A DNA stretch of 64,000 bases, from positions 62,001 to 126,000 of the forward strand of contig CAXKVV010000081.1 in the NCBI GenBank assembly GCA_964058805.1. The letters run 5' to 3'. Made by a program: the position numbers and the translations under genes. The DNA comes from Schoenoplectus triqueter. Its lineage: Eukaryota; Streptophyta; Magnoliopsida; Poales; Cyperaceae. How positions within the stretch are numbered: position 1 is the stretch's first letter; each line of letters starts with the position of its first letter. Under the pieces are notes generated by a model. That model saw only the letters and a program-made list of their open reading frames with translations, was not told the origin of the DNA and did not search any database. Of the stretch, positions 40,739 through 64,000 are shown piece after piece.

Positions 40739-40792
40739 TTCTATGCGCTAAAAATGACTAATGATTTTCGAGTATTTTTGTTTTTGCAGGAA
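40676..40792 (+). other. leader with 3'-splice-site-like end before gag
   Basis: Contains one inverted-repeat arm, then ATGACTAATG, a T-rich tract and TTTTTGCAG at 40781-40789, three bases before the gag ATG. The frame can be extended upstream to 40733 by a GTG or to an ATG at 40754, but the left element is out of frame there. I therefore take 40793 as the start. A spliced leader is possible but inferred. Confidence 0.55.
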
Positions 40793-43700: not shown

Positions 43701-46700
43701 GAGAAATAAATAAAGAAGAAAGCGAAGAAATCTGGGGTGCTTCGTGCAACATGGTATATTCTTCTCACGACGAAGATATGCCAACATTAGAGGAGATGTT
43801 CTTCCCGGATGACGAAGGGGAAGCAAGCACCTCTGGGACCAAAAATGAAGAATGTAAAGCCGTACTCCGGTCCGGGACTTATATACCCGAGAGACAGGCT
43901 CCCAAGGATTCCGATAAGGGAAAGGATAAGGCCCTGAATAAAGGCAAAGAGGTCGAGAACCTAAGCAAGAACCCAGAAAAGACCCGGTCGACGGGCGAAG
44001 AATATAATGTGTTGGCACATCTGCGTAAGATCCCAGCGCTATTAAGCATATTTGATGCGTTGATGATGTCACAAGAACTAAGGGAGGTGCTAATCCAGGC
44101 CTTGCAAGATCCCGAGAAGTACAAGTCATACTTCATAGAGCAAAATATGCAAGAAGCCCTATTCACCGCTAAGCGGGCCACCTGTATAAATTTCACGGAC
44201 GACGACCTCCTAATAGGCACCGTTGACCACAATCGCCCACTGTACATCACAGGAAATTATGGAGGGCAAAAGATTGGCCGCATCTTGGTCGACGCGGGGT
44301 CCTCGATTAATATCATGCCCCTTAAAACCCTGAAGACCATCACCTTAGACGTAAAGAATCTATCTGATGAAAAGGTGATTATTCATGGCTTTAACCAAAA
44401 CTCCCAAAAGGCCCTGGGAGCTATAACTCTGAACCTGCAATGCGGAAGCCTAAGAGCGCCTACTAAATTCTATGTCATTGACGCTGAAACCTCTTATCGG
44501 GCGTTGCTGGGTCGCCCGTGGCTTCATAGTAATCAGGTCATACCCTCTACTCTGCACCAATGCCTGAAATATATCGAGAATGGTAAGCAAAAGAGAATTG
44601 ACGGAGATGTCAAACCATTCGGGGTGCATGAGATTAAATTCAACGACGCCCAATATTTTCTGCCTAAATCCGCCGTGGCGCCAAGCCGGCCTATAACAAA
44701 AGCAGGTCAGAAACCCTTCAATAAAGGCCCTAAATTTGATACCTCATCCGGAGAAGAAGAAGAGGTCAAATTTAATATCAAACCCCGAGGTGCTCGAGCC
44801 CAAAGACCCGGAAGAAAGTCGGGTGAAGAAGCAACCTTCCGCTTCAAACAGGTGGCTGCGTATAAGGCCCAAATAAAGCCGAGCGAAATCAAGTCAAGTG
44901 ATTCTGAAGAGGAGGTCATTTTCAATTTTAAGCCTGCCAACACCCCTCAAATTCAGATCATAGAGGCAACTTCGGGAGAAGACTCTGAAGATTCTGACGA
45001 CTCGGGCGATACCACCTCGGGAGAAGAGTCTGGCCATGATCGTCAGCCCTGGGAAGAGGAATCTGACGAAGAGATCATCTATCACATCCTCAAGAAGCCA
45101 TATAAAGGGCCCGAAACAGATAATGAAAGCGAGGAGTCATATATGATCAACACGGGACCCGGTAGCGGAAGGGATAACCTGGTTAGGCCGAGGCCTATAA
45201 ATGAAGAACGCTCATGGCGGGAAAATTTTGAAGGTCGCGTCTGGATTGCGATCGACGAAATAAGGCACCAAGTTGAAAATAATAGAAGGGAGGTGTCTGA
45301 ACAATGGGAAGTGATGCAGGATATCAAGGTGCAACACAATGAAATCATGATAATGATTGAAAACCTGCAAACCGCGATCTATAACTCCGAGCTACTCAAG
45401 GAAGTGACGAGCGAACCCCGTTCCAGGACCCCCGAAAGACAAACACCCGATAGCGGCAAACGGGTAATTGTCATAGTAGATGAATCAAAGGGGGAAGAAA
45501 CAAAAGCTAAACAATCGACCGTCATGCAAACCCTCAAGGTCAAGAAGAGCAAACCATACTCTTTCTTAAAAAATAAAACAGCTCGGATATTTGAGCAGGC
45601 CCTAAAGAGCGGGTTAACACTTCCCGTCTGTAAAAGACCCGCTGACATAGAAAGAGCCGGCGAAGGCAAATTCTGCCCTTATCATCGCATATTGGGTCAT
45701 ACTATTGAAGAATGCTGGGTATTCAAAGACCTTATAGAAGAAGGGCACAGAAATGGGACGATCCAACTCCCGAAGAGCTTTCAACAAGACCCAGCTCCGC
45801 ATAACCTGAATAACAAGGGCAAAGGGGTGGCTTATACGATCTCGCACACTCCCGTACTTAGTAAACCTAAGGTTGCGAGACGTAAGCCTATCAAAGAAAT
45901 CTACCGCTCCAACTCGGTCATGAATATTGAGATAGAAGAAGAGATGGCAGCGCTAGAGATTACTGTGGTTCCTGAAAGGCATTTTAAAGACCTTATACCA
46001 AGGGAGGTGAACCACATCCAAACCCTAAAGACCTTTGTTGTGCCGGCAAAGGTAGAGCGCCTCAAAGGGAAGACTATCATCCACAAGGCCATAATTTTCT
46101 ATCAGAGCGATTCAACCCAGTCTTTGAAGAACCCTGATCACAACGCTTGGAAGAAGTGGGTGATAGAACAAGAATCGGAGAATGCAACGAGCGATGACGC
46201 TGCATCCCATCCCTTTGGAAAGGAGCTATATAAATTGGCGAAAAGGGCAAAATGTCTGAGAGACATATCCAAGGCCGAGGCCAAGCGCTTTGATGAACTC
46301 TGGAATGGCGGCCAGAATAAGGTCCTGGGCCTGGACGGTAAAATAAAATATACCCGGGGGTTAGGGTATAACTGCGATGACGCAGCATGCTTCGAGGGGT
46401 CTCTCAAGGAGTACCGTATGGAAGAGAGCTGCTGCATGGCTTCTGTTGAAATGCCAGATGATAAAACAGAAGAGGACAATACCCCGGTCCTGAAAAATGC
46501 TTTGAAGCAGCTAGAAAAGGAACCTAACACGGTCGATGAGTTAGCTGAAATTAATTTGGGGACAGAAGAAGACCCACGACCAACTTTCATAAGCGCGTCT
46601 TTGCCGGAAGAGGTAGCTGACAGGTTGAAGACATTCCTTAGAAGCTATATGGACTGCTTCGCTTGGAGTTATAAAGAAATGCCTGGATTAGATCCCAACG

Positions 46701-47692
46701 TGGCGGTCCATTACTTGAAAATTGATCCAACCTTCAAGCCGATTAAACAAGCGCCGAGGCGAATGAGAATAGAACTCGAAGAGAAGGTCGTGGAGGAAAC
46801 AAAGAAACTCATCGACGCCGGTTTCATACGGGAAGAAGAGACGCCAGAATGGGTAGCTAGCATTGTCCCGGTTAAGAAGAAAAATGGGCAAATCCGCATT
46901 TGCGTGGACTTTCGGGACTTGAACAAGGCGTGCCCTAAAGATGATTTCCTGCTCCCCGTAACCGAAATCATAATTGATCATACATCCTCCTATGAAGTCT
47001 TCTCCTTCATGGACGGTTATGCGGGCTATAATCAAATTAAAATGGCGCCAGAAGATGAGAGGCATACGGCATTCCGCACGCCGATTGGCATATATTGTTA
47101 CAAAGTCATGCCGTTTGGGCTCAAAAATGCGGGAGCCACCTACCAACGAGCGATGACGAAGATATTCGACGATCTAATCCACAAGATAGTAGAATGTTAT
47201 GTGGACGATCTGGTCATCAAAGCCATGTCATATGAAGAACACCTCCAATATCTTGAGGTCGTTTTCAACCGCCTGAGAGAACATGCGCTCAAATTAAACC
47301 CGTTGAAATGCGCATTCATGGTATCATCTGGTAAATTTCTAGGGTTTGTGGTACGCCACAGGGGAATTGAAATAGACCCAGGCAAGATAAAAGCAATAAC
47401 TGAACTATCCCCGCCAAAGAATTTAAAACAATTGCGATCTTTGCAAGGGCAATTGGCGTACATCAGGCGGTTCATAGCCAACCTATCGGGTAAAATCCAA
47501 CCCTTCACCCGGCTAACTAAGAAGAATATCCCGTTTAAGTGGGATGGCGAGTGCCAGCGAGCCTTTGAAGAAATCAAGGCATATCTACTCAACCCTCCAG
47601 TATTGGCGGCGCCCATACCCGGGAAGGAACTTATCCTATATACGACTGCCCTAGATGGATCCTTGGGAGCCCTATTGGCCCAAGAAAACTAG
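40793..47692 (+). CDS. gag-pol: Gag-protease-RT-RNase H (N-terminal part) polyprotein, ends at in-frame TAG
   Basis: Gag-Pol polyprotein of the complete element, 2299 codons before a TAG. Domains by residue from ATG 40793: basic, proline-rich N-terminus (~80-300); acidic/coiled-coil stretch (~390-470); Retrotrans_gag capsid domain (~533-690); zinc knuckle 1, C802-x2-H805-x4-H810-x4-C815; aspartic protease with VDAGSS (Asp1167); an acidic SGEEEE-VKFNIKP-type repeat region (~1318-1420); a second knuckle module, C1628 to C1641; reverse transcriptase (~1970-2210) with Asp2074 and YVDD (2136-2139); then the start of RNase H (LILYTTALDGSLGALLAQEN). Gag and Pol share one frame, so no frameshift separates them. 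The knuckle duplicate between protease and RT is unusual. The stop truncates RNase H and removes integrase unless it is read through. Confidence 0.95.
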   Translation: MAYFGNFNLAPYTVTPAQSPEGKLFMFFGTIPQELTVYGPAPVAAFTPATVRISIPDEEEDSITLTPKGISNNVMASPTTSPKRRRRPSKKTAPTAAAQTTRDSQTSRKRALDAYQNQLVARPAIPVSNKFTALRIVAKNSATGQLRQAWEVPKPTPRPTQRPQRRQDKSQTPAEAIYKAHRALKQRKSVRNARSRQYVSRSGQSQDMARPQAIVSTPNPRRFTPKATPSTQQVWVPKGSQPTRSQTQAQPNKAGRSNAPSESVFNRLGQKSVFSRLGSRIPLNSLKVTAPDQTKKKRRTARYEEHFSVNTISISYDTDPDTDAEVNMTQDDQSPPNQAHVTNTNKNNGRKGRPPKRVNPEGNSREGEDHNENPDLFDNEDDGETRPEVPIDEIEILKGHIEARDEELIRQRELIATMLKQNEELIKAVKSLQESQDANFKAGSSRQEGIHSTKSNHKGKQPVDSKPHPHRTIEVEAEPTGISRKEIQAMIAQQMQIAGSGYAIPPVKNCGHPYPAIYDLEEYPKGYVIPRFRTFSGEGNKDLNPEQHLAHFVASCGNTGGNDALLLRQFPQSLVGTAFQWYYSLENNSIRTWDEMADSFRARFVMVSDKINIADLASTKPKKGESMTDFINRWRNLSIKCDRTLTEDEAVNLIMKNIDGWMGMLLGVTKVNTFKDLLRSVSNMERMSPHTVPNFMNNRPQRGARAETKVAFTSLKDKMVANADTQSGNSGTNANDYNKGPRPNPGGSSRSFESLKQKKSKPYSFRKDKVAQIFRGALKNGLTLPASKRPEDADKSDEPNFCPYHRVLGHSIEDCWVFKDWVEKTYKNGGITLPKGFLQSPSAHEQANTISHEEEKVPGQSCEDQEEQWTTHLSKKSIKMLKALKKEPDMKWKDNITPVVPPKPRVYYKVDQSQNQVLKKRKKHRSNKSKKNKIEEYEQGSPEAITLQHFISKEDWEKLTLGQKKEDADGEINKEESEEIWGASCNMVYSSHDEDMPTLEEMFFPDDEGEASTSGTKNEECKAVLRSGTYIPERQAPKDSDKGKDKALNKGKEVENLSKNPEKTRSTGEEYNVLAHLRKIPALLSIFDALMMSQELREVLIQALQDPEKYKSYFIEQNMQEALFTAKRATCINFTDDDLLIGTVDHNRPLYITGNYGGQKIGRILVDAGSSINIMPLKTLKTITLDVKNLSDEKVIIHGFNQNSQKALGAITLNLQCGSLRAPTKFYVIDAETSYRALLGRPWLHSNQVIPSTLHQCLKYIENGKQKRIDGDVKPFGVHEIKFNDAQYFLPKSAVAPSRPITKAGQKPFNKGPKFDTSSGEEEEVKFNIKPRGARAQRPGRKSGEEATFRFKQVAAYKAQIKPSEIKSSDSEEEVIFNFKPANTPQIQIIEATSGEDSEDSDDSGDTTSGEESGHDRQPWEEESDEEIIYHILKKPYKGPETDNESEESYMINTGPGSGRDNLVRPRPINEERSWRENFEGRVWIAIDEIRHQVENNRREVSEQWEVMQDIKVQHNEIMIMIENLQTAIYNSELLKEVTSEPRSRTPERQTPDSGKRVIVIVDESKGEETKAKQSTVMQTLKVKKSKPYSFLKNKTARIFEQALKSGLTLPVCKRPADIERAGEGKFCPYHRILGHTIEECWVFKDLIEEGHRNGTIQLPKSFQQDPAPHNLNNKGKGVAYTISHTPVLSKPKVARRKPIKEIYRSNSVMNIEIEEEMAALEITVVPERHFKDLIPREVNHIQTLKTFVVPAKVERLKGKTIIHKAIIFYQSDSTQSLKNPDHNAWKKWVIEQESENATSDDAASHPFGKELYKLAKRAKCLRDISKAEAKRFDELWNGGQNKVLGLDGKIKYTRGLGYNCDDAACFEGSLKEYRMEESCCMASVEMPDDKTEEDNTPVLKNALKQLEKEPNTVDELAEINLGTEEDPRPTFISASLPEEVADRLKTFLRSYMDCFAWSYKEMPGLDPNVAVHYLKIDPTFKPIKQAPRRMRIELEEKVVEETKKLIDAGFIREEETPEWVASIVPVKKKNGQIRICVDFRDLNKACPKDDFLLPVTEIIIDHTSSYEVFSFMDGYAGYNQIKMAPEDERHTAFRTPIGIYCYKVMPFGLKNAGATYQRAMTKIFDDLIHKIVECYVDDLVIKAMSYEEHLQYLEVVFNRLREHALKLNPLKCAFMVSSGKFLGFVVRHRGIEIDPGKIKAITELSPPKNLKQLRSLQGQLAYIRRFIANLSGKIQPFTRLTKKNIPFKWDGECQRAFEEIKAYLLNPPVLAAPIPGKELILYTTALDGSLGALLAQEN
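43060..43325 (+). repeat. Gag zinc-knuckle module, copy 1
   Basis: Encodes KKSKPYSF, then RGALKNGLTLP, then CPYHRVLGHSIEDCW and TLPKGF. It is clearly homologous to 45534-45790. The C-x2-H-x4-H-x4-C pattern is the usual nucleocapsid-type knuckle in Tat/Ogre Gag. Confidence 0.88.
45534..45790 (+). repeat. Gag zinc-knuckle module, copy 2, between protease and RT
   Basis: Encodes KKSKPYSF, EQALKSGLTLP, CPYHRILGHTIEECW and QLPKSF. It has the same order and spacing as copy 1, with many substitutions, so it is an old duplication with all four metal ligands preserved. Confidence 0.88.
47690..47692 (+). other. in-frame TAG interrupting RNase H
   Basis: The frame before (ending LLAQEN) and after (DGNQNALYYLSR) is continuous and matches Ty3/gypsy RNase H on both sides. 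This is a nonsense codon, not a frameshift or domain boundary. It lies between the first and second conserved RNase H blocks. A C-to-T change in a CAG context is one possible origin; TAG followed by GAT is not the known CAA-UUA readthrough context. Confidence 0.9.
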
Positions 47693-49879
47693 GATGGTAA
47701 CCAAAATGCGCTATATTACTTAAGTCGCATGATGGTGGGGGCAGAACATGGGTATTCACCGATTGAAAAGCATTGTTTAGCCCTAATCTTCGCGGTGAAG
47801 AAATTGAGGCACTACATGCTAGCCCATAAAATCATTCTAATATCCAAGGTGGACCCTCTTAAATACCTGATGACTCGACCAATGCTGACGGGGAGGCTGG
47901 CCAAGTGGGCTATTATTCTTACCGAGTTTGACATCACCTATACACCGCAAAAGGCGATAAAGGGGCAGGCGCTGGCGGATTTCCTGGCTGCACATCCGAT
48001 TCAAGATGACTCCCCATTAAAATGTGACTTTCCTGATGAGGAAACCCTACATGTTGAAGAAGGAAGTCCTATATGGGAGATGTACTTTGATGGTGCCTCA
48101 TCGATCAAGCCGATCGCGGGCCCGGGAGTCCCAACTGTGCGAGCTGGCGCAGGACTAGTCTTCGTAACCCCGGAAGGCGGGATAATACGACATTCTCTGG
48201 CTTTAACCGAACCATGTACAAATAATGAAGCAGAGTATGAGGCACTTATCGCCGGACTAGAGCTATCATTGGAGCTGGAAGTCAAGGCTGTGCGCATCTT
48301 TGGGGATTCACAGTTGATAATAAATCAAATAATTGGCGAATACAAAGTCCTAAAGCCGGAACTAATACAATATCACCAGAAGGCCATGGAACTAATGAAG
48401 AAAATCCCGTACGTGTCCATCGAGAAGGTCACAAGGGCTGTGAATGGTGAAGCAGATGCGTTGGCCAAACTCGCCAAAGAGCTGGGTGAACCAACAGAGC
48501 CGGAAATCCACATCATCGTCCGCAATAGGAGGCCATTATCATTGTGTCAAACAACAGATAAGGCGAATAATGAAAATGCTGGGTTAGAAAAGATGGAATG
48601 CCAAGAAGCAATGATAACTGAAGACGATGATTGGAGACAGCCGTTCATCGAATATTTCCGGCATGGCACCCTCCCCAAGGATAAAAGGATAGCTGATCAA
48701 CTAAGAAAGCGGGTACTACGGTATGCATATGTGGGCAATACGCTATACCGTAGGTCTTATGATCAGTTATGGCTAAGATGTGTATCAGGGCCTGAAGCCG
48801 GGCAGGTTATGAAAGAAGTTCATTCCGGGCTATGCGGAGCACATCAGTCTGGGCCAAAGATGAAGTTAAAAATCAAGAGAATGGGATATTATTGGCCCAC
48901 GATGGTGGCTGATTGTGAAGAGCATGCAAAGAAGTGCCGCATGTGCCAGATACATGGCCCTTTTATACATCAAGCGCCAAACCCGTTGCACCCCACGGTA
49001 GCATCCTGGCCATTTAATATGTGGGGCACAGACATAGTGGGACCCATAGACCCTCCTACGTCGAGAGGTCACCGGTTCATCCTGGCGGCGACAGATTACT
49101 TTACAAAATGGGCTGAAGCCGTTCCGCTTAAAGAAGTTAAAGCGTCTGATGTGGTTAAGTTCTTCAAGACGCACATCCTCTACCGATTCGGTACCCCACA
49201 ACGGATAATATCCGATAACGGGACGGCCTTCAAGAGCTCCAAAGTCTATGCCCTGGCGGAGCAATTTAATATTGATTGGAGATTCTCGTCCATTTACAAC
49301 CCAAGAGCCAACGGTCTGGCCGAAGCCTTTAACAAAACCCTAATCAATATCATGAAAAAGACCGTAGACGGCAACCAACGAGACTGGGATAATCGTCTAC
49401 AGGAGGCATTATGGGCTTACCGAACTACATACCGAACACCTACGCAAGCTACCCCGTATTCTCTGGCTTTTGGGGTTGAAGCCGTTCTCCCTCTTGAGGT
49501 GGAATTACCGTCGTTGCGGGTGGCTATGCAAAACGATATGACCGCGGATGAATGCCAACAACTCAGATTAGACGAATTGGATGCCATGGACGAGAGGAGA
49601 TTAATAGCCCAGCAGAACCTCGAGATATATCAAGCAAAAATGGCAAGGGCATATGACAAAATGGCGCGAGTCAGGGCATTTCAACAAGGGGAGCTTGTTC
49701 TTGTCCTCAAGAGGCCGATCATTGGCCGGCACATCGGCCCGAAATTCTCTCCGAATTGGGAAGGGCCATATGTAATTGAGAAGGTATACGGGGGCGGCGC
49801 ATACCAACTCATAGACCATGAAGGTGAAAGACCCATGCCACCGATTAATGGGCGATATCTGAAGAAGTACTACACATAG
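47693..49879 (+). CDS. pol: RNase H (C-terminal part), second RNase H and integrase; continuation of pol after TAG
   Basis: Same frame as the upstream part, 728 codons plus stop; the first ATG after the stop is at 47729. It completes the first RNase H (LALIFAVKKLRHYM, KYLMTRPMLTGRLAKW). It continues with an archaeal-type second RNase H with Asp2433 (YFDGASS), NNEAEYEAL, Asp2505 (GDSQLI) and Asp2555 (EADALA). Integrase follows: HHCC zinc finger (VHSGLCGAH to CRMCQ), then Asp2747 (WGTDIVG), Asp2808 (ISDNGTAF) and Glu2844, a DD35E spacing. The C-terminal part ends PPINGRYLKKYYT without a chromodomain. Residue numbers count from 40793. All catalytic residues I can locate are intact. The dual RNase H is the hallmark of the Tat lineage. 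Confidence 0.94.
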   Translation, partial: DGNQNALYYLSRMMVGAEHGYSPIEKHCLALIFAVKKLRHYMLAHKIILISKVDPLKYLMTRPMLTGRLAKWAIILTEFDITYTPQKAIKGQALADFLAAHPIQDDSPLKCDFPDEETLHVEEGSPIWEMYFDGASSIKPIAGPGVPTVRAGAGLVFVTPEGGIIRHSLALTEPCTNNEAEYEALIAGLELSLELEVKAVRIFGDSQLIINQIIGEYKVLKPELIQYHQKAMELMKKIPYVSIEKVTRAVNGEADALAKLAKELGEPTEPEIHIIVRNRRPLSLCQTTDKANNENAGLEKMECQEAMITEDDDWRQPFIEYFRHGTLPKDKRIADQLRKRVLRYAYVGNTLYRRSYDQLWLRCVSGPEAGQVMKEVHSGLCGAHQSGPKMKLKIKRMGYYWPTMVADCEEHAKKCRMCQIHGPFIHQAPNPLHPTVASWPFNMWGTDIVGPIDPPTSRGHRFILAATDYFTKWAEAVPLKEVKASDVVKFFKTHILYRFGTPQRIISDNGTAFKSSKVYALAEQFNIDWRFSSIYNPRANGLAEAFNKTLINIMKKTVDGNQRDWDNRLQEALWAYRTTYRTPTQATPYSLAFGVEAVLPLEVELPSLRVAMQNDMTADECQQLRLDELDAMDERRLIAQQNLEIYQAKMARAYDKMARVRAFQQGELVLVLKRPIIGRHIGPKFSPNWEGPYVIEKVYGGGAYQLIDHEGERPMPPINGRYLKKYYT

Positions 49880-51626
49880 CCCGGAGCGGGGCCGATCGAG
49901 TAGTATCTACTGTAAATAAATAAGGAGGGAATAAGTGTTCGTTTACACACACATGCACGAAACACAAACCCATGTCTAACCTCCACTTTTGCATAAAAAA
50001 AAAAATCCCAAAAAACCCTACTTGTGCATCTGTAAATAGAATGCATCCAAAAATCCAAAACCACACAAACACATTTAGCCCTATAAAAATAAAGAATATA
50101 GAATAAGAGAAATCAACGCCAAAACCACGCGAGAATGTAAGGCGAGAGCTTTGGTGTTTGGGCTCATAATACAAATACCACTGGGTTTGTCCATTTGATA
50201 CAGAATAAACACAAAAATGGGCGGGGTTTGCAGTTTGTTCCTCAAACTATCTGTTGCCCAATGACGAAAGTTGCTCATATTGGTCGCCCGCGGCGCAAGC
50301 CAAGGGATAGGTCGAGCAAATTGGTGGCTAGTATATAGTCGCTTCCGAGGGCATATGAATAAATAACTCTCGTACTATTAGTAACATGTATCACTAATAA
50401 CCAAAAATCTGCCTTCTTCTAATAAAATAAATGGATATATATGTAAAACAATAAAAAACCTATTTTTTCTACTCATAAAAAAAAATGAATGATAATAAAA
50501 ATAATAAAATCTTTTCAATAAGGGGTTGCCACCTTTGTCCCCGACACCATGAGTGTTATACAAAGCCAGGTTGGGTGCATTCATCCGTAAAAGCACCACA
50601 CGCCCGAAGAAATGGTGTGTCATAATCCCACGACATATCATGGAGGGGTCAGATCAAGGGTTTACGCTTGTACCCGACATTTCATGTTAAACAAAGCGGC
50701 TCGCTTAAAGAAGTGACTCAGGTCATGGAGAGCGGACCTACCCGATGAAAGCCTGTCTCGCAGGGATGCGTGATGGATGTTTGAGGGTAGCTAAAATATA
50801 AAAAACTATGTTGGGTACATTCATCCGCAAAAGTACCACACGCCCAAGGAGGTGATCTGTTTCTAATCCCGAAATAGATCATGGAGGGGTCAGACTAAGG
50901 GTTCATGCTTTCGCCCGACATTTAGTGTCAAATAAAGTAATTCGCTTAAAGAAGTGACTCAGGTCATGGAGAGCGGACCTACCCGATGAAAGCCTGTCTC
51001 GCAGGGATGTGTGATGGATGTTTGAGGGTAGTACCCCCACAAAACAAATTGAGTGGAGATGAGTGAATGTGAGTTTCCACTTCCGCACGCAACGGTGCAC
51101 AAATGAGGGGAGAGTGGGTGAGCTTCCATAAATAAATGTCAATTAAATATACAAGGAGCATCCACAAAATGGTGTTATCAATTGCATCCATAATCCAATT
51201 GATACTGGTAAGTTTATCCATCAGTAATAAAGGGATAAACGGGTTTATTCTGTACCCGGCCTAGAGGTCAATACAGACAGGTTCGGTATCCGTAAAATAC
51301 CACGGTTACTTGAGTTTTGTATTGCCATAAATAAAGAGAAACATGTATAGAATGAATGTAATAGGATGTTGTAAGATTTTTCTTTATTATGTTTAGACGC
51401 TGCGAAAGAATGAAGCAGTTGTAATAGGGCACTTTTGCAAATAAGATTGGAGGTGCATAGCATGAAATCAATAAAATATTTCCTCGCGCTGCAGAGGAAG
51501 CGATGAAAGAATAATAATAGAGGCAAGCATCATCCACAACAAGAGATCAAAGTGATAAATGACAATGCATCCTATATCAAGTATAGTAAAAGAAAAGGAG
51601 AAAGAAAAAATGATGAAAAGTGCAGT
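49880..51626. other. spacer between pol and the antisense gene
   Basis: Non-coding on both strands as far as I can see. It has A-rich tracts (about 49995-50010), a purine-rich AATAAGGAGGGAATAAG near 49918-49934 and a tandem duplication at 50571-51031. It would serve as the 3' untranslated region for the sense pol message and, convergently, for the antisense gene. Confidence 0.6.
50571..51031. repeat. tandem duplication, ~220-bp units at 240-bp spacing
   Basis: Units 50571-50790 and 50811-51031 share TTGGGT-CATTCATCCG, CATGGAGGGGTCAGA and a nearly identical ~85-bp tail from CGCTTAAAGAAGTGACTC to TTGAGGGTAG. The first half is more diverged than the tail, which suggests partial homogenisation. 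Confidence 0.85.
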
Positions 51627-54600
51627 CTATGGGCCCAAAAAGCGGGACTCCAACTCTAATAGCACAGTGCTAATAGTCTCTAAATGAGTATGGAGGGAGT
51701 GCCTATCCTCCTCCGAAGCTGCCTCGAAGTCCAAGAACTGAGCGAAGGCACTATCTCGGGCGCTCGAATAAATCTGCAGCTCTGGGAGACGTCCCGCTAG
51801 ATGACGGGAAAAGCCCTCCACTGATGATCTATGGTCCTCTAGCTCCTGCACGAGCAGTCGAGCGGGCCCACCACTAACTCCCATGGAACGGAGAGTGGCA
51901 CAAGAAGAGAGCCGCTGAAGATAACGGAGTCGAGCAGCCTCCAAATGTCTACGCAGCTCATGAATCTCCAACTCGTGCTGATATACGAGAGAGCTCGCAT
52001 CCTGGTAAATCCTGAGCAGCTCCTCACACCTCCTAGAAATAAAAGTGCTCTCGAGACGAGGTGCGATGAGTAGAGCTGGCGCGATGGTATCCCGCATCAG
52101 CCTATACCAATCGAAAGAGAAGCCACTGGGCAGAGAGTCCAGGATCTCGAAATCTAGCGGATAGCCCCCGAAAAAGGTATCTCGGAGTGCATCCGCCAGC
52201 GCGGCCAAGGCGAGCTGCACATCCCTCGATGTAACATCTGCAAGTAAAATAAATGGGTTAGACAAATTGTTATAACCAAAGAAGAAATAGAGGGAAGAGA
52301 AGATCTAACCTATCGCCTCGTCACCTGAGACAGGCGGGACTGAATCGGGGGCAGGGATGTCGGCCGCCTCAGGAGGACCTGCAGGTGCACTAGACCCGGC
52401 TACAAAATAAAATGAAAAGCATAAATACATGGAAAAGGAAAATACGGGCAAATGACAAAAGGAAATGTAAGGTACCGGGAGAAGCATGAGGCTCGGCGAA
52501 ACCCTCGCTAGCCGGAACCCCCGTCTCTGGGCTGTGGAATAGCTGCTCTACCAGCCAACTCTCATCCAACTCTGAGTCGTAATCGACTGCAACCCGCTCA
52601 GTCGAGACTCTGCCATCTGTGGCCATGAGAGGCTGCCCGTCGGGAGATGAAGAAGCATGAGATGGCCCTCCCTCGATCAGTAATGGCTCGTCGCCTGCGG
52701 GCTCGACAGCCAATGGACTCCCTTGCTCTAAAGAAGCCTCCTCTGATCGTACAAGAGTGAGCACTGGTCCCAGAACCACATCAAATGAGTCACCGTCTCC
52801 AGTGGGTACCAGCAAGATCGACGGAGAAGCGGGGCCGTCATGAAAGAAAGGCTCCGAGCGATGTGGAGATGCCATGTCATCGGCCTCAGGGTCTGTAAAA
52901 TCTACATGTAAGAATGAAAATACTAGTGCATGCTGGCAACTAAGTATTAAATGAAGCACACGAACCTGCGACGGCAAGGTCGGTGCAAAACCCTGAAATG
53001 GCAGTGCTCGCAGGCGCCGATAGATCTGCTATGATGTCGTCTCGGGCTACCTCTACAGGAGATGTATCGCGGGCTGAAAAATAAACCCTAATCAGAAATA
53101 TAAATGAAGTGCGCCCGAATAAGGATAGGCGAGTCAATAAAGAAAATCACCCGGAGTGGGAGAAGGAAAAGAAAATGGAGAAGACGGCTGAGAAGCGCCG
53201 TCTCGATCTCTCCCCATGGTAGCTGGAGCCGGTGGCTCGACGTGTGGCTGAGAATGAACGCCAACTACTCGTGGACGAGGGACCGAGAACCCGGGCTCCG
53301 CGTGATCATACTCATAAGCCAGCTCTGAATCAAAAGAGAATTGGTCGAAATGAGATGAAGCTTATCGAAAAGAAATAACCTAAAGGGTGATGAAGCATAC
53401 CTGTGAGGACGGTCCTAACAGGAGCATAAGAAAACCGGCTGTCTAAACCCTGAAAGTCGACAGGCTCTGCAGCAATGGCCGGGAAAGGGCTGCGATCACG
53501 CGAAACGGTGCCATCTAATAGGGGCTGGCCATCTCGCGGACATGTACTCCGGACGACCACCGGAGGAGTATACGACTGGTAGGAGCGAATGGTCTCATAA
53601 TACCACTGCTGATAACGCCTCGTGAAGGTGGAAGTCCTAGAGGTGGATACCATTTGATAGCAAGTACCTGTGCCTAGTCGGAAGAGGTGAGTATAGCACC
53701 ATCCGATACCCTCCAAATCGGCCGCCAGTGATACAGGGCGGAGAAGAGATGCTGGAATATCCTGATCCAAGCCAAACTGATGTGCGCATCGATGTGGCGA
53801 ATAGGGCTCGATGAACATATGATCGCCCAATCTGAGAGGGAGAAAGCCCTGACGAAGACTGATCAGGTACTCCAAATCAATAGGCCTGGCTCGAATGCTA
53901 GAAGAGTCAGAAGAGGGGATCCTGCTGTCAATCACCATCCTGTCAGCAACCCTAGATGTCCCACGGGCCACTGATCTATCTCGAGAGAAGCGCAGATGGT
54001 CTCGACTCCTGAAGAATCTATACCGAGCAGCCTCTGGAGTCAATGAAGCTGGCTGCACCCCAGCTAAGTCACTCAATAAGGGTAGACGATCTCGTAGCGT
54101 GACCGCCATGCCGGGATCATATGAGCCAGACCAATGTAAATGGAGCCATCCGCTAATCAAATGCCACGGGATCAGCTCCTGACACTGTGAAGGACTACGA
54201 GATGAAGTCAGACCACGGAGGCACCTATAAATGTTGGCCAGTACAGGCACGGCCAAAGAAATCCTGTTGCCACGCGCGATCAGGCTCGCCATAACGAACA
54301 CCGAAGGCCGAATGGTGTATGCGGGGGAGCTAGGCAATAAGAAATAGCAAATCCACCAAGAGATGAAAGCTGTCAAATAAGTCTCCCGATCCACGATATG
54401 TGAACACAGGGTATCCTGAGATGGGATAGGACCGTCGTGATGAATCTCGAGCCGACCTGTACCAAATGGATCTCTGGTGGAAGCCAGACCCGTAGGGCGA
54501 GTGTGGACCCGATCGGTGAAATAGGAGATCCAATGTCTGAACGGAACTCCGGGATGCCCCCTCCGTAAATGATGATAAATCTCATAAATCCTATGCAAAG

Positions 54601-55279
54601 AAGGCGGGAATCGAGTGAAGTCCCCCGAGTCAGCGGGTGAGACCATGAACTCATCATAGAAATGGCCAAAGATCGGCAGCCCGGTCAACTGCTGTATCTC
54701 TAGGAGGGTCGGAGTCAGCTCCCGATCGTCGATGAACAGAGTGTTGGTAGAATAGTTCCACCTCTCACAAAAGGCCCGTAGCCAGGGTGTGTCGATATGA
54801 TAATGAAACATCGATAAGAAAACTGAGTCATATATCCCGGCTCGCCTGAGCAGAGTCCCCTCCCGCATGAGCACATACCGGGTCCACTCTAGCTGATAGC
54901 CATGGCACTCTAAGAGAGTGATGAAAGGGGCAGTGGTCCATCTGTGAGCCTCCCCGTCTATAATCTCCTTGCCCAGGAGATGTGTCAAAGGAGCCGTAGA
55001 AGCAACGCCTAAGGGCTGAAGGGGCATGATGTCATGAGGCTGATCATCCCTGAAGAATAAACCGCCGCCTCGCGGGTAGACAGGAGTCGCTCGGATGGCT
55101 GAGACGAGAGGAGTCCAATCGCTAGGATCCTCGTAAAAAGAATGATAATGACTCAAGGGGCGACGTGGAATGGCGTCGTGAGATGAAACTATAATACCCA
55201 AAGAAGAGAAGACGTCATGAGAAATGAAGTGATGAATAATAAGGAATAATACACCAAGACAAGCCTTTCGAGCGTTCAA
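51627..55279 (-). CDS. antisense spliced gene: Plant Mobile Domain protein with coiled-coil C-terminus
   Basis: Minus-strand gene between pol and the 3' LTR. Exons: 55279(or upstream)-53401, 53324-53151, 53073-52966, 52892-52476, 52399-52310, 52237-51627. Introns of 76, 77, 73 (or 64), 76 and 72 nt all run GT to AG and all fall in phase 1; internal exon lengths (174, 108, 417, 90) are multiples of three, and the joined frame is open to TAG at 51627. The first in-frame ATG is 55027, giving about 1008 residues; the frame is open upstream to the LTR edge without an ATG. Early residues carry Plant Mobile Domain (PF10536-like) hallmarks: LRRAGIYDSVF, ERWNYSTNTLF, TLLEIQQLTGLPIFG and SLAVPVLANIYRCL. 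The middle is acidic and Pro/Ser-rich. Exon 6 has a probable coiled coil (CEELLRIYQDAS to LRRHLEAARLRYLQRL). PMD proteins occur in plant genes and transposons; the role here is unknown. Confidence 0.85.
55189..55254 (-). other. possible additional 5' intron of the antisense gene
   Basis: Minus strand reads GTCTTG then GTGTATTATT at the donor and TGGGTATTATAG at the acceptor. Removing 66 nt keeps the frame and would also be phase 1. The upstream exon would then reach to or into the 3' LTR. The donor is weaker than the other five, so this is tentative. Confidence 0.35.
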
Positions 55280-55303
55280 GACTCGTCTTGGTGGGTGGCT
55301 CTT
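55280..55303 (+). other. expected polypurine tract position, not canonical
   Basis: The bases just before the 3' LTR read GACTCGTCTTGGTGGGTGGCTCTT. There is a G-rich core (GGTGGGTGG) but no clean purine run, unlike the usual plus-strand primer. Either the primer is atypical or priming differs. Confidence 0.4.
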
Positions 55304-58300
55304 TGTTTACCCTTGAAAAATTTCAAGGATGAGTAGATGAATAAATGAAATAAATTGATGATAAATCATAAGAAAGGGGAAGAAGAGAGAGAGAGCAATG
55401 AAAGATGGCCCACTGATCAGGAGAGGTCGCTGCCTAACCCCGGAACAAATCCATTAGTCCCACAATGGAATGCTGGGCATGAAGTGAAGAGTATAAATAC
55501 CCCGCTATTCTCTATCCACTCAGCATGAGTGACACCCAAGAAGATCGAGGGAGAGAGGAGACCTCTTGGGTGTCACCATGTGATTATATCTTTTCTGACA
55601 AGTGGGACCCACATGGCAGTCCCTTATGAGCAGCTCCAACGACATGGACCTAGCCTATTTTGCTAAGAAAGCTAACCAACCCGGAACAGAGGTTAAGCAT
55701 TAATCCCACAATGAAATAATAGGGTGAATGACGAGGATATAAATACCCCACCACCTCCTACTCATTCGAGGTGGCTGACCCTCGGGAGATTTAGGAGAGA
55801 GAAAATCTCCTGATGGGTCAGCCATTTGATTACATTTTCTCTGACAAGTGGGACCCACCTGGCAGTCCCTTGTAGATAAATCTAACAACATAGCCTATCT
55901 GATGAATCACCATGTGACCATTTTCACTGACAGGTGGACCCCACACCTCAGTGACCTATTAAAGGAGTCAGAATTGAACCCTAGAAATCTGTCTTTGAAG
56001 CTAACCCTAGAAAGGAGCTGAAGCAGTATAATCCCTATGCTACATGAACTGATGTCAATGCCAAGCTAGCATTTTGATGCAACTAGTCATGAGAAATTTC
56101 AAATGTGATTTTGCTTTCAAGGCTGACCTGGTGCCAAAGCTGCGAGCAACCACCTAACCATGCTTTGATTTGTGTCAATTACTGATAAGTAGTCAGTTCT
56201 TTGACCAAGTCACCCTCATGTTAAGGGATTGAAAGTCAATTTCACAAGACTGATCAGGTGCCAAAGCTGGGAGCAACCACCTGATCAAGTCTAGATTTGT
56301 ATTAATTGCTGATAAGTAGTCAGCATTTGATCAAATCAAGCCCTAATGAATATCAATATAAGTCTAATTGGTATTTAGTTAGGGTGGTTTCTGCAAGAGA
56401 AAGATAATTGGCAGAGACATTGAGCTACAATTGAGATCAGGGATTAATTCATAAGGAATAATAGGGTTTTATGAATAAAAGAATTTTTAATTCAGAGAGG
56501 CAAGGGCAAAAATGGAATTAAAAATTACAGGGATGATCATCATGAATTTAGGGATTTTTGGTGAAATTTTCATGATTTTTGGATAAGGGGAGCTATTAAA
56601 ATAAATTCAAGGAAGATAAAAGCAGAATAAATGGACTGATCAAAGGCTGAGATTCAATCAAGGGTTCATCTGGGTGCAATCTGGGGACAGAGACACATCT
56701 GGGTACAAACTGGGGGTCCTAAGCACACCTATACCAATCAGAGAAGAGAGAGGGTGTGACACGTGTCAGCATTTCATTGGGCCACCTCATGCCACGTGTC
56801 AGCACCCCATTGGTCCACCTCAGCCATGTGGGTCCCACACCCCTACAGACCTGACAAGTGGGCCCCACCTATGCCACATGGCAGCCAGCCATTGGTCCAC
56901 ATCAGCAACCACTTCATCCAGCAGCTAGACAAATGGCAGCATGCTATAAGGCCACCTCAACAGCTCATTGCCATGTGGCCTTCCCTTATTGGTCCACCTC
57001 ACCACTGTGAATCCCACTATGCTATAAGGCGACTGACAATTGGGCCCCACTGGATGCCACATGGCATGCACTCACTGGTGCCATGTCACCATACAGCGTG
57101 TATAAAGAGTGACAGATGGCTCTTTATGGTTGGTACAGGGCAACACACAAGGTGCCACATGGCACTATATTACAGAGCCACATCATACACAGATTATTAA
57201 CACTAAGGGTTTGTTTAATAAGCAATCAACCAATCAGGAAGAGCCACCTCAGCATATTAGCATTAATCAGTTACTAACCTCACAAGCTTAAACGCTTAAA
57301 CCTTACAGGTGGGACCCAGTAGTCAGATGGATAAGGCTAGGATCACAAGCTAAAGATGTAAACCAAGTCCATTCATCCTGTCTATCCAATACAGCGCAAT
57401 TCAATTTAAAACAAGAGATAAAAGGAAGGTGAACCTGGTGCATGCTCCCCCAGTCGCTGATCTACTCCCCTTTGGCGCTTTGGTGCACGTGCGCCTGAGC
57501 CGTCCAGCCCAGCCGAACACTCTCCCCGCTCTCCTTCCTTCTTCTTCTTCTCCTCGCGCGCGATCATCATCTTCTTCCCATGGCGCCTCACCATTTTAGA
57601 GACTTAAAAGCAATCGATAAACATCAATGCATCAGTCAGAAGGGTAAGAACAAAGGGATGACAGTGAAGGAAGAGTTGAATAGTGAGATTACCACAGTTC
57701 GAGTTGAGACAGTAATGGAGCGATTCTAAAGAGATGTAATTGAAGGCTTCAAGCACCAAATTGAACACAGAGACAACTTCCTTGAGCTAAGGCGACGCCG
57801 ATTGAGAGGTGATTATGAAGCAATTGAGTTAGAGGAAGGTGCAAATGTGAAGAGTCGCCGGAGATAGTAATAAAGAGGCAAGCTTGGTAGGCGCTTCAAA
57901 GGCCAAATTGAACGATCAGAAAGCTTATTCAGATCAAGGCGACGCCAATTAGCATGGAAAGAGTGAGTGATTGAGTGGAAGAAGTGGATTGCGCCAAGAG
58001 AAGAGGTGAGGCAGAAACCGGATTTTGAAATAAATGAAATTCAGTGAAATTGAGAGAGAGAAAATGCTAACCATGGTGCAGAGGCATTTAAATATGGATT
58101 ATTGATAAGAGGGCTTGCTTATCAATCAAAGTAACTGTTGAATTGGAGTCAAACGAGTAGCGGCACAGTCAAACCATAACAGAAAGCAGTTGGGCGGTTT
58201 CCACAACAAACACAAACCCATCTGGGCCGTCGATTGAGTTAGAATGAAGGGTGAGGATGTATCCAAGGTGGCAATCCGAGTGGAAGGCAGCTAACCAATC

Positions 58301-60903
58301 ACAATTGAGTATAATCGGCCTAATTAGTCTATATAAACTGAAATTCAGCAACAGTAGAGGGGGGGGATTAGCAGAGCCATTAGGATCAAGAACATACACC
58401 CATATACACTTTTCTAGTCGACAAGAGAGAGAGAGTGAATAGCTAGAAGAGAGATTATTCAATTTCTTGTTTCTGTGAAGAATAAAAGGTAATTAGTAAT
58501 ATTCATTGGTCTATAGATGTTTTCCTTGTATTCTTTCTCTGAAATTGATTTTAAAACATTCAATTCATAGTTATTGAATAGTCAATTGAATATATTTCTT
58601 CACTCTTGCTCTCTTCCTTTGGAAATTTTGCTTCTTTCATTTGTTTCTTCACTGTTCCTCTTTGAAAGGCATCAATTAGCAATAATCAGCCGCATTCAGT
58701 GAGCCACTGGCCCAATCACAAAGTGATTGGTGAGCCTTTAGGCCTGAATCGGTTATAAAGTCAAGAATTTGCGATTTAATTGTTGATATACTGATTTTCA
58801 TTGGAAATTTTCATTTTTAGTATTCATTAGCTTATGATCACATAAAACTGAGGTATACAAGTTTATATCTTTGTAATTTTCTTGATTGAATTGTTCTTGA
58901 TTGATTAGAATTAACCCTAGCGTTGCAATTTCATTACAATGCACTGATTCTGTTAGAACCAGTATATCGCCGAGTTCTCAAATCCAAATTTGTTCAAATT
59001 AACACTCAACTCAGTGAGCCACTGGCCCTAGCTACGCCTAGGTGCGCCTTTAGGCCTGAGGGGTGTTGATTCGATGAGAAAAGGGCACGAATTGAGCTAA
59101 TTAAGCTTGGTACCGACCGGTCCTATACGCTACCGAGTGATGAATTGCCTCAGCACCGCCAAGAACGAAAGGGAAGTCTTCCGCCTAATCCATACAGCAT
59201 CTTCATGTCGAGACGATGCTCATTGACCTTGTAATTGTCAATAACTTTGATCAATTTTGCCGAATTTAACGAAAGAAGCATCTCGGTACCGGTTCTAACT
59301 GATACACTACTCGGTACCATCATGTGGCATCTCTCACCGTATGGATTCTCGATCAAGAACCATAAAAGAACTCTCCAAAGCAAGACGATGCGGAAGCACC
59401 GACCTGATCATGGAAGAGATGCTTCGGCCGCCGGAAGCGCCACTCGGCACGAATCCTGACGTAGGAACAAATCGGAAGAGATGAAAGAACCGTTGGCACG
59501 AACCTTGAAGCATGCGCTGATCTTGAAGCTAATCAACACATGGGATATGTTAAGAAGTCCGATTATTAAACCAAGAAAGGATCTGGGCCGTAGATCCATT
59601 AAACACGTATCTCAAGTAAATCTGGCGGCCCAAATGAAGAAGAAGTTATATAGAAGATGCGCACCAATCTCGGCATAGATCTGGCGGCCCAGATTAAGCC
59701 CATTAATTAAATAATAACAGAATAGTAATAACATAGAGTAAATAAATGTTTTGAAAATGTTCCTGAACTCCAAATTGACTTAAATTTGTTTCTAAAATTT
59801 TCTTATTTTTCATACTATTTTTCTATACAATAATATTCCAGTTTTAAAAATATGATCATGATAAAACAATTTAAAAGCAAAAGGCATTACATATATTGAT
59901 ATAGTTGACTTAGCTTTGACTTGTCATTTTAAATACTATAAAAATTCCAAAAATACAAATAAAAATCATAAATAATAACTAGATATATTTTACTGATTTT
60001 TCAAGTGATTTTCCATGAAATAATAATGATGATAGTAAAATGCTATAATGAATAATGAAATTAGCTATATTCTTTGGTAAATAAAAAAATAATAATAATA
60101 ATAGATATTATATTGATATTTTCTGTAAAAAGAATAATAGAATAAATAGCACAAAATATACAAAAATATAATACCATGGTAATAAATAGTAAAATGCATT
60201 TTTCTTTTATAATAAAGAATGATAATATAGTTTTATAATATGAATTGTATTTCTTTTATTTCTATACAAATATATAAAAAAATATATACTTTTGATGAAT
60301 AAAATGTAATAAAAATAATAGTTGTAATAAAAACATAATGAATTTCATCTCTTATGACTATTTTCAACTAATAATAAAAAAATCTTATACTTTTCTATAG
60401 ATAATAAATAGAAATAATAAAAATAGATATAATAAATAGGATAGAATATTAGTAATGATTTCTTTTTAGCTATTATAGATATTTAAAATATAAAAAATAA
60501 AAAAAGTAATAATAGTAAAATAGTATAGCTAACCACCTTTTAATTTTGTAAATGATTCTTACATAATGAATAGTATTTCAATATAATAGAATATAATAAT
60601 AAAATTCTATTACTTTGGCTATTATAAACATTTTAAAAATACAAATAAAAATTATAGCCATTTTATTTTCTATTATTTTTGTAAGTGATTTTCTACAGAA
60701 TAAATAGAGTTAGAAATAATAAAGATAAAATTTTATTACTTTAGCTATTATAAAAATCCCAAAAATATAAATGAAATTCTAATTAATAGCTACCCCCTTT
60801 TCCTATTATTTTTGTAAATAATTTTCTACATAGATAAATAGAGTTTAAGAAATAAAAATAATAATAATAAAATAATAATAGTAACAAGAATATAATAATA
60901 ATC

Positions 60904-60934
<31 letters not shown>

Positions 60935-62607
60935 GCATCTTTATAATAAAAATAATAATGGAAGATATTATTGACTTTGTGCATTTTAGAAATGAATAAA
61001 CATGCTTACATAAGGAGTGTAGAGCCACGTGAGAATATTTGCACACATGATATGACATTTAGAGTGATTAGTCAAGACGAGAACACCTTGACGGAGGATA
61101 ACTAAGGTTGTAATGACAACATGAGGAGATGCGTTGAGACAGGAACATCTTGGCGCGAGAAGATTAAGGCTTTGATAGCAACAGGAGAAGATACATCGAG
61201 ACAAGAACATCTCGACACTTGATGAAGAATAACAAGATACGTTGAGACAAGAACATCCTAACGTAGAATGATTAAGGGCTTTGATAGCAGCATGAAGAGA
61301 CATGTCGAGACAGGAACATCTTGACGCATTGACGAAGAATAACCAGAGCTACGATACTAACATGGAGATATATGTCGACTCTGAAGAAGAAGAACATTAT
61401 GATGTCCTAGATAGGTGACATTTTAATGACTCGCTGCCATGAGCAAGTAACTCATGATTGAATACGCTCACACAAGGGGTGTAGGGCAACATAGTAATTT
61501 TGCACAAGTAATGCAACACGTAGAATGATTAGTTGAGACAAGAACATCTCGACGCTCGCTGAAGAATGACCAAAGCTACGACATCAGCATGGAGAGATAT
61601 GTCGACTTTGAAGAAGAAGAACATTAAGATGTCCGAGCGAAGCGACATCTTAACGACTCGGTGTCATGAACAAGTAATTCATGACCATTTGAGCTGGCAA
61701 GACTGAACTCATCCGTCGATGAGTTTGTCTCCTGGCTCATTTCCCGAGACTGTGAGATTGAATCGGTCTGTAGGTAGATTCATCCACAAAACAGTGAATG
61801 TGAACCGTTCTGTAGGTAGGTTCCTTCACTAACACATGCCTCAATGTTGAACTGGCCCAGCGCTTCAGGTTTGACATTGTGTGCAATTGTGTTTCCTAGG
61901 TTTATGAATCGGCTTAGTGCTTCGAATTCATGATCTAGAAGATCGGTGAGAAGAAACACGTGGGCCATATCCACCCTTCTCCTGATTCACCAACCTCAAG
62001 ATCAACCGGCTCAGCGCTTCGAGTTGTATTTTGTGTGATTGGTTGTTGACTAGTTAAGATTGAACCGATCTGTTTGTAGGTTTATCTTCTAGATCAACGG
62101 AGGTCGAGTCGATCTGTATGTAGACTCACCTCAAGCCCCTCTAAAGAGATTAACCTGGTCTGTAGGTAAGGTTATATCTCGAGGTGGCATAGACTGAACC
62201 GATCTGTTTGTAGGTTCGTCTTCCATAGGACAAAACCGATCTGTTTGTAGGTTTGTCTTCCATAGATTGAACCGATCTGTTTGTAGGTTAATTTTCCGTA
62301 GACCCCTTTTTATGAAATTAGACGACCACTTGACTATCTTTTAACTATACTATTTGCTTCTCTCTTTCAAAGATCCAGAGGTGCCTCGAGGTTCGTAGCC
62401 CAGGGTAATTAACGGTGGGGGCTTGCGCCCACCGGAATCTACAAGAACTCACAATCACTAAAAACCCCCTGAATGTGCATCCAAATATCTCTAAACGGCA
62501 GAATCGGCCGACACCCAGCGGATGCACGCTCGGGAGGGATCTCCGTGTCCTTCTTCCGCAACCCATCGCCCAGCGGCGGTGCGGAGCGCGCGAAAAAGGG
62601 TCGCACA
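55304..62607 (+). repeat. 3' LTR (7304 bp)
   Basis: Same termini as the 5' LTR (TGTTTACCC to TCGCACA). Sub-parts: palindrome 55311-55328; TATA modules with TATA at 55492 and 55738; direct repeats 56120-56338; G-box cluster 56758-57093; TATATAAA at 58330; 119 bp absent from the 5' LTR at 58621-58739; AT-rich block ~59700-60965; GAGACAAGAACATC repeats 61016-61636; stem-loop 61625-61652; CTGTTTGTAGGTT repeats 61751-62301. Its frames duplicate those of the 5' LTR and are not genes. Its left end lies immediately upstream of the antisense gene and may supply that gene's promoter. Confidence 0.96.
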
Positions 62608-62612
62608 AAACT
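62608..62612. repeat. target site duplication (right copy), AAACT
   Basis: Matches 33455-33459. After it the satellite continues with GCTATTAAT exactly as in uninterrupted copies. Confidence 0.97.
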
Positions 62613-64000
62613 GCTATTAATAAAAAGATTGTTTGAGTTTTTAACATTTTTGCCCTCAGAACTGCACATAATCTCTTGGAAATTAATATAACTACTACTA
62701 ATTACGCCTATTGTAAAATTGTCCAATTAAAACTTCGATATGAATATTCAATAACGCCATTTTTGGACAAAACATAAGTAAGATGCGTTAAAAACTGCTG
62801 TTTAAACAAGTTGTTTGGCTTTTTGAAATTTTTTGGCCGCACAACTACACATAATTTCGTGCAAATTAAAATAATCACTCCTGATTACGCCTATTATAAG
62901 ATTGTCCTATTAAAATTTCGATATGAATATTCTATGACGCTAATTCCGCGCAAAACATAAGTACGATGCATTAAAAACTGCTGTTTGAACAAGTTGTTTG
63001 AGTTTTTCATAATTTTTGGCCGAATAACTGCATATAATTCCGTGCAAATTAATACAATCACTCCTAGTTACGCCTATTACCAAATTGTCCAACTAGAAAT
63101 TCGATATGAATATTCTATAACGCTAATATTGCACAAAACATAAGTAAGATGTCCTAAAAATCGCTGTTTAAACAAGTTATTTGGCTTTATGAAAATTTAT
63201 GGCCGCATAACTACACATAATTTGGTGCAAATTAATATAATTACTCCTAATTATGTCTATTATAAGATTGTTCAATTAACATTTCAAAATGAATATTTTA
63301 GGGCGCTATATTTCCTCAAAACATAAGTAAGATGCACTAGAAACTGCTATTTAAAAAAGTTAAGTTTTCCAACATTTTTGGCCTCATAACTACATATAAT
63401 TTCGTGAAAATTAATATAATTACTCGTAATTATGCCTATTAAAATATTAGCCGCTTTGCACTTCGATATGAACATTCTACGACACTAGGTTTGCACAAGA
63501 CATAAGTAGGTGCATTAAAAACAACTGTTTAAATAAGTTGTTTGTGTTTAACAAAATTTTTGGCCGCGTAAATATACATAATTTCATGCAAATTAATATA
63601 ATTACTCATAATTATGCCTATTATAAGATTGTCTAATTAAAACTTCGATATGAATATCCTACGACGCTATTTTTCATAAAACATAAGTAAGATACATTAG
63701 AAACCGCTGTTTAAACACGTAGTTGAAGAATTTTAACATTTTTTGACTCATAACTGCGCATAACTTCGTGAAAATTAATATAATTACTCCTAATTATACC
63801 TATTAGAAGATTATCCAATTAACACTTCGATATGAACGATGTACGGCACAAATTTTGCACAAAACATAAATAAGATGCATTGAAAAAAGTTGTTTAAACA
63901 AATTGATTGAGTTTTTGAAATTTTTTGGCCGCATAACTACATATAATTTCGTAGAAATTAATATAATTACTCCTAATTAGGCCTATTATATGATTGTCCA
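62608..64000. repeat. satellite array, continuation of the ninth HOR copy
   Basis: Resumes at the HOR position interrupted at 33459; the next monomer landmark falls at 62736, as predicted from the phase before insertion. Same monomer order as the start of the other HOR copies, running to the window edge in the eighth monomer. Confidence 0.96.

Follow-up and report, generated by a model that had tools for sequence, protein, structure and literature searches.

A conserved, probably spliced antisense Plant Mobile Domain gene in a giant Tat-type LTR retrotransposon of Schoenoplectus triqueter

The window analysed here is a 64,000-nt stretch of Schoenoplectus triqueter DNA (assembly GCA_964058805.1, contig CAXKVV010000081.1, positions 62,001-126,000 of the forward strand), and the 82.1-Mb genome assembly in which it lies was searched for family copies. 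The window holds a 29,148-bp Tat-type long terminal repeat (LTR) retrotransposon on the plus strand (33460-62607), which sits within an array of a 183-bp satellite and is flanked at both ends by the target-site duplication AAACT (33455-33459 and 62608-62612). The 7,192-bp 5′ LTR (33460-40651) and the 7,304-bp 3′ LTR (55304-62607) are 99.77% and 99.85% identical over two aligned blocks and differ in length by about 110 bp. A sense open reading frame (ORF) for gag, protease, and reverse transcriptase (RT; 40724-47692) is continued by RNase H, an additional RNase H (RVT_3), and integrase (47693-49879). The minus strand between pol and the 3′ LTR is occupied by an antisense gene encoding a Plant Mobile Domain (PMD), which is the subject of this report.

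Six minus-strand exons and five GT-AG introns, all in phase 1, give a single open frame. The joined protein matches the PMD profile PF10536 with E = 2.1e-26 and 93.4 bits (Pfam gathering cut-off 34.9), which confirms the six-exon antisense frame with a PMD that the first-pass annotation of this DNA had proposed. The whole PMD is encoded by exon 1 (53401-55188, 596 aa), the segment that is exchanged between copies as described below. Exon 2 (53151-53324), exon 3 (52966-53073), the acidic, Pro/Ser-rich exon 4 (52476-52892), exon 5 (52310-52399), and exon 6 (51627-52237), which encodes a helical C-terminal domain and ends in the stop codon TAG, complete the frame. The introns are located at 53325-53400 (76 nt), 53074-53150 (77 nt), 52893-52965 (73 nt), 52400-52475 (76 nt), and 52238-52309 (72 nt). 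Across an alignment of 50 copies the donor GT is kept in 50, 50, 49, 49, and 47 rows for introns 1 to 5, respectively, the misses being one AT in intron 3, one gap in intron 4, and three gaps in intron 5; the acceptor AG is present in 50, 50, 49 (of the 49 that have letters at this place), 48, and 47 rows, again with three gaps in intron 5. The acceptor of intron 3 was corrected to 52893, since a candidate at 52902 reads AG in only 36 of the 50 rows. The five GT-AG phase-1 introns foreseen by the first-pass annotation thus stand, while their length range becomes 72-77 nt instead of 64-77 nt.

The PF10536 profile is matched in 25 of the 25 members of a protein alignment made of the window protein and 24 homologs (alignment A1, E up to 1). 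Intron 1 seems to be old, judging from the protein alignment of relatives, in which 14 of 25 ORFs (P0004-P0009, P0012-P0014, P0020, P0021, and P0025-P0027) extend to the end of exon 1, read a Gly there in the same or a neighbouring column, and continue into unrelated residues, the pattern expected of a G|GT donor. Exons 2 to 5 carry a net charge of -36 across 263 aa, and exon 6 is modelled with a helix at residues 64-117, at low confidence (mean pLDDT 56.5), in agreement with the acidic region suggested earlier and with a helical C-terminus. The predicted product, including a putative exon 0, is 1,067 aa long. The protein encoded by 51627-55188 is nearly devoid of lysine and asparagine (1 and 4, respectively, beside 90 arginines among 1,062 residues, against 18.1 and 25.9 expected from positional base composition), which could reflect the composition context or an avoidance of ubiquitination sites.

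The upstream end of the gene required revision. A start at 55279 was rejected, as the first in-frame ATG occurs only at 55027 and the coding pattern extends above it, being clear to about 55160 and weak to 55188; shared changes in 55216-55028 fall on codon positions 1, 2, and 3 in numbers of 8, 2, and 14, and one copy with a divergent PMD (type 2, L059) has Thr at the place of this ATG. All 50 rows have a phase-1 acceptor AG at 55190-55189, and the four type-2 copies have a same-phase AG nine bases upstream in the alignment. Exon 1 is therefore taken from 55188, with the start codon probably in an exon 0 inside the 3′ LTR. The LTR stretch 55560-55304 contains two ATG-to-GT pieces with phase 1. 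The first (55439-55454, minus strand; MDLFR plus 1 nt, donor at 55438) keeps its ATG in 50 of 50 rows and its GT in 45 of 50, both being present in four of four type-2 copies; its ATG at 55454 lies 45 nt downstream of a TATA box, TATTTATA (55492-55499, minus strand), which is present in 50 of 50 rows of the aligned stretch and is the putative antisense promoter. The second (55526-55520, encoding ML, ATG 55526, donor 55519) is kept in 48 of 50 rows at each site and in three of four type-2 copies at each, and lies upstream of the TATA box. We favour the ATG 55454 piece as exon 0 from these sequence features, with a confidence somewhat reduced because the second piece exists. A possible hairpin was also noticed beside the polypurine tract (55252-55293). 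Its stem letters, CACCAAGAC/GTCTTGGTG in type 1 and CACCAAAGC/GCTTTGGTG in type 2, differ on both sides yet pair, and the stem is used by the lowest-energy folds in six type-1 variants and in two of the four type-2 copies shown; on one sequence alone it is not significant (z -1.68, 16 of 200 shuffles as good).

Selection on the gene was assessed across family copies. An exon-1 protein search of the genome gave 217 candidates, the best 70 of which were scored and listed (94-100% identity), and the alignment comprises 50 rows, the window copy and 49 others, from the first 41 and the last nine of the 70 places (the 20 between were left out). Since the places were ranked by exon-1 protein similarity, the sample favours an intact exon 1; exons 2 to 6, though outside the query, are equally without frameshifts. 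Against the window copy, the exons of the 49 others show one indel event (24 nt, in frame) per 153,105 aligned bases, compared with 134 events, 130 of them not multiples of 3, per 17,973 bases of introns 1 to 5; distinct gap patterns number 1 and 29, respectively. This lies far beyond chance, as had been claimed for the intron pattern. Of 46 whole-gene rows (four partial rows excluded), 39 have no premature stop, 7 have one, and none has a frameshift. Shared substitutions comprise 216 non-synonymous and 425 synonymous changes, giving a ratio of non-synonymous to synonymous change (pN/pS) of 0.168 with the frame read from 55303, versus 1.09 and 1.84 in the wrong frames; the comparison of copies that the first-pass annotation had put forward as a check thus comes out in its favour. 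Singletons give 0.434, a higher value such as would be expected if many private changes arose after insertion, and in exons 2 and 5 the singletons are unconstrained (1.17 and 2.29) while the shared changes are constrained (0.36 and 0.35). Purifying selection acts strongly on the multi-exon frame in the family copies compared, and the sequence comparisons make it almost certain that the antisense gene is real, selected, and spliced.

Four copies (L059-L062) carry a strongly divergent version of the PMD segment, which we call type 2. In exon 1 the distance between types 1 and 2 is 0.364, versus 0.036 within type 1, and in the non-coding piece 55303-55189 up to the LTR edge it is 0.446 versus 0.030. 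The corresponding values between and within types are 0.200 and 0.051 in exon 2, 0.148 and 0.090 in exon 3, 0.082 and 0.073 in exon 4, 0.067 and 0.061 in exon 6, and 0.101 and 0.071 in the LTR piece. The 5′ breakpoint is located at the LTR edge and the 3′ one near 53245, in exon 2. Breakpoints of the exchange thus fall on the LTR edge or within exons and avoid the exon borders, and such exchange takes the place of the exon-by-exon growth that the uniform intron phase had suggested at first. In exons 2 to 6 the nearest relative of type-2 copy L059 is a type-1 copy (L033, 0.049). Each of the remaining three is nearest to a type-2 copy, by slim margins in the case of L062 (0.072 versus 0.073) and L061 (0.091 versus 0.094), the second value of each pair being to a type-1 copy. 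In all four, exons 2 to 6 stay in frame when spliced, and a single premature stop occurs, in L059.

A third version (type 3, L065) matches type 1 at 90-100% identity as far as 54901 and again at no less than 86% from 53450 to about 53050, with about a quarter of the bases differing between 54901 and 53450. In the PMD core, types 1 and 3 differ by a synonymous divergence (dS) of 1.57, with a ratio of non-synonymous to synonymous divergence (dN/dS) of 0.08, and between types 1 and 2 the synonymous sites are saturated (pS 0.77); dS is 0.14-0.16 within type 1 (two comparisons) and 0.14-0.21 within a type. With a high dS between types and a dN/dS of 0.08, these are therefore old domain versions, still constrained, on a common backbone. 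In a search with the type-2 exon 1 (best 90 of 193 candidates scored), the scored matches fall into 21 at 93-100%, 3 at 76-83%, 19 at 67-69%, and 47 at 65-66% identity. The last group consists mostly of places also found by the type-1 exon-1 protein search; one member of the 67-69% group is L065, and the rest are counted as type 3 on their identity alone. Among the best 40 of 158 candidates scored in a search with 480 bases of RT, all of them 96-100% identical, RTs with the spacing expected of one element were seen for five type-2 genes (C1095, C751, C1662, C1816, and C621) and for four genes of the 67-69% group (C2057, C68, C799, and C2043); one type-2 copy, at C2080, is without most of pol. 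On this sequence evidence we hold with high confidence that the PMD segment has been swapped by recombination between elements of an otherwise common backbone. The exchange may proceed by template switching between co-packaged RNAs, and recombination within one family is on record for ONSEN bursts (PMC5668417).

The element itself is a Tat retrotransposon of the Ogre/Retand branch and Ogre-like. The order from gag to integrase with an additional RNase H is that of Ogre and Retand elements (PMC6317226), and the additional RNase H between RNase H and integrase, a trait common to both, is present (in ORF P0002, RT_RNaseH 2-79, RVT_3 149-261, and rve 440-537), as is a PMD extra ORF, which is typical of Ogre but not universal. 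It is not assigned to the Ogre clade because gag to RT lie in a single frame (40724-47692), whereas the prevailing Ogre layout has gag-protease and RT-RNase H-integrase in two ORFs with a spacer intron. The Retand antisense domain TRP28 (PF04195) was not detected in the spliced protein, PF10536 being the sole Pfam match at E up to 0.1. A primer-binding-site-like sequence, TGGCACGCCCGGTGGGACC, follows the 5′ LTR, the window copy has an in-frame stop inside the RNase H domain (47690-47692), and the spacer between pol and the antisense gene contains a 241-bp unit duplicated in tandem (50570-51031). The 183-bp satellite array extends over 10016-33459 and 62607-64000; its copies 2,923 bp apart are 99-100% identical, which indicates a higher-order repeat of about 16 units. 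The minus strand at 1-10009 holds part of a second copy of this family (5′ LTR about 2796-10009), and a type-1 antisense gene outside the window (C79:52852-54750) fits this copy.

The modelled PMD has a DNA-bound protein as its best fold match and agrees with the fold of the VANC DNA-binding domain. VANC21, encoded by the transposable element VANDAL21, binds arrayed short motifs in its own element and strips methylation (PMC5735166, PMC10398659). The window protein and VANC21 are 6% identical, DUF1985, the VANC family domain, was not detected by Pfam in the window protein, and the VANC21 motif was looked for here and is absent. As a possible sequence bridge, one ORF elsewhere in the genome matches both the DUF1985 and the PMD models (L066, G000:C330:12340-12880), and two more DUF1985 matches lie at C86 and C63. 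The models make it very probable that PMD and VANC share a fold, and from the fold and the bridge the PMD would be the DNA-binding domain of the VANC class.

Repeated motifs are indeed present in the LTR, in three sets (61072-61553, 61760-62290, and 55595-57320, with the matching places in the 5′ LTR): TCGAGACARGAACATCTTGAC occurs 6 times per LTR at up to 3 mismatches, GAACCGATCTGTTTGTAGGTTC 7 times at up to 5 mismatches, and CTGACAAGTGGGACCCAC 9 times on both strands at up to 3 mismatches.

The explanation we prefer, with a probability of roughly 0.55 for the whole, is that the antisense gene is a functional accessory gene of this young giant Tat-type element of the Ogre/Retand branch, with a VANC-like role. 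Antisense transcription would start at the TATA box inside the 3′ LTR, and the short exon 0 with the start codon would be joined to exon 1 by splicing across the LTR edge. Being antisense, the introns would stay in the sense genomic RNA and pass into every new copy; this logic, already offered in the first-pass annotation, is sound and fits the data, which here are DNA alone. The protein, with its PMD, acidic linker, and helical tail, would bind the repeated non-coding sequence of its own element, by analogy with VANC21, and may then counteract host silencing or activate transcription in trans. The odds of such an anti-silencing role, taken by analogy, are about even. Exchange of the PMD may alter the recognition target of the protein. 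More tentatively, and with somewhat less than even confidence, Tat retrotransposons may encode a sequence-specific anti-silencing factor of a VANC/PMD superfamily in an LTR-started, spliced antisense gene that reassorts its DNA-binding domain by recombination, with a modularity like that of the specificity parts in other arms-race systems; the PMD would then be an ancient DNA-binding domain with an anti-silencing role and the source or a relative of that in host MAIN and MAIL1.

The weakest point of this explanation is the target. The TCGAGACARGAACATCTTGAC and GAACCGATCTGTTTGTAGGTTC kinds of motif recur unaltered in two other LTR pieces. One, of 926 bases and 92.6% identical, adjoins a type-2 gene at C1009, where an inverted second LTR makes up the rest of the locus; the other, 95.5% identical over 1,410 bases, adjoins a gene of the 67-69% group (C799). 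Nor does the U3 piece track the PMD type. It follows that the types share a target, that the targets are elsewhere, that the exchange is neutral, or that the target is a host protein. Moreover, the non-coding piece 55303-55189 has no indels and is more constrained than introns 1 to 5, which calls for caution on the exon 0 model.

The constancy of the examined LTR pieces across PMD types would suit a decoy, in which the element protein would imitate MAIN/MAIL1 of the host and, with no sequence-specific DNA binding, disable the MAIN-MAIL1-PP7L silencing complex. MAIN and MAIL1 are PMD proteins required for silencing of transposable elements, in complex with PP7L (PMC9899485), and element-encoded PMDs have been proposed to act in counter-silencing (PMC8616336, PMC5418596). 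We nevertheless consider this unlikely. The best PMD match by score (L063, G000:C1629:5800-8800, 249.6 bits), which lies outside the family and is host-like by score only, is 34% identical to the element PMD over 64 residues, a poor basis for mimicry, and the best fold match is a DNA-bound protein. The same distance, together with the separate clades formed by Gypsy-encoded PMDs in a published phylogeny (PMC5418596), tells against the host-gene capture that the first-pass annotation had considered. Sequence like the LTR end of the element family begins about 120 bp past the C1629 match.

It is less probable still that the PMD steers integration or nuclear localization to heterochromatin such as the 183-bp satellite. 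The window copy lies inside a satellite array, the second copy abuts one, and in maize the Grande antisense protein localizes to the nucleus (PMC7264820), but no link to the integrase was seen, and the satellite context is known from these two copies. We give very little weight to a function of the antisense RNA itself, as double-stranded RNA control with incidental open frames; a regulatory function is possible for the antisense transcripts of LTR elements (PMC7264820), but the amino-acid constraint, frame-bound indels, and phase-kept introns would be left unexplained. Evolution of the PMD types in place by fast positive selection without recombination is the least credible of all, since the PMD is indeed the most diverged part but its synonymous sites are saturated or at dS 1.57, far above the within-type values, the non-coding piece at the LTR edge diverges too, and dN/dS between types 1 and 3 is 0.08.

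With this gene, what was loosely called an "extra ORF" in plant retrotransposons becomes a specific gene model that is under selection and whose biochemical role can be tested. The PMD, a domain so far without an assigned function, gains a candidate relative by structure for which a DNA complex has been solved, and a retroelement is shown to swap its PMD between copies. Should the preferred explanation be true, a major class of plant retroelements would encode anti-silencing proteins of its own, and it would become possible to test how the MAIN/MAIL1 silencing pathway of the host arose. The open-access literature searched contains no report of a multi-exon antisense PMD gene, of PMD exchange, or of a PMD together with DUF1985; this novelty is provisional because subscription papers lay outside the search. 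The novelty suggested at first would thus hold for the multi-exon antisense PMD structure and not for PMDs in Ogre or for antisense ORFs, both already known (PMC6317226, PMC7264820, PMC11963269).

Among known systems, PMD extra ORFs of Ogre are in print (PMC6317226, PMC9289625) and a PMD occurs in 57% of Ogre elements (PMC6317226). They share with the present element the PF10536 extra ORF, the Tat lineage, and the position of the additional RNase H. Here, in contrast, the gene is multi-exon and antisense, with selected acidic and helical parts and a start codon probably in the LTR; the Ogre survey counts extra ORFs as open frames of at least 250 codons (PMC6317226). Antisense ORFs of Grande, RIRE2, Retand, and others likewise lie between pol and the 3′ LTR (PMC7264820, PMC11963269), and transcription of Grande gene23 is driven by an upstream promoter, its product being the nuclear protein mentioned above. 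As far as the consulted parts of these articles go, the Retand survey lists TRP28 and five other domains without the PMD (PMC11963269), and a multi-exon structure is not described in either; one of them asks for a search for spliced antisense transcripts (PMC7264820). ONSEN offers the pairwise recombination among members of one family that PMD exchange needs, although the abstract says nothing of a domain of ancient divergence being exchanged (PMC5668417). MAIN and MAIL1 are also PMD proteins (PMC9899485, PMC7156037, PMC5418596) but belong to the host and keep silencing in place, and the host-like PMD found in this genome is distant in sequence. VANDAL21 differs in being a class II element, beside the low identity, undetected DUF1985, and missing motif noted above; like the present gene, VANC21 is encoded by its own transposable element and matches in modelled fold, VANC genes have introns, and VANC targets are non-coding tandem repeats (PMC5735166, PMC10398659, PMC8616336).
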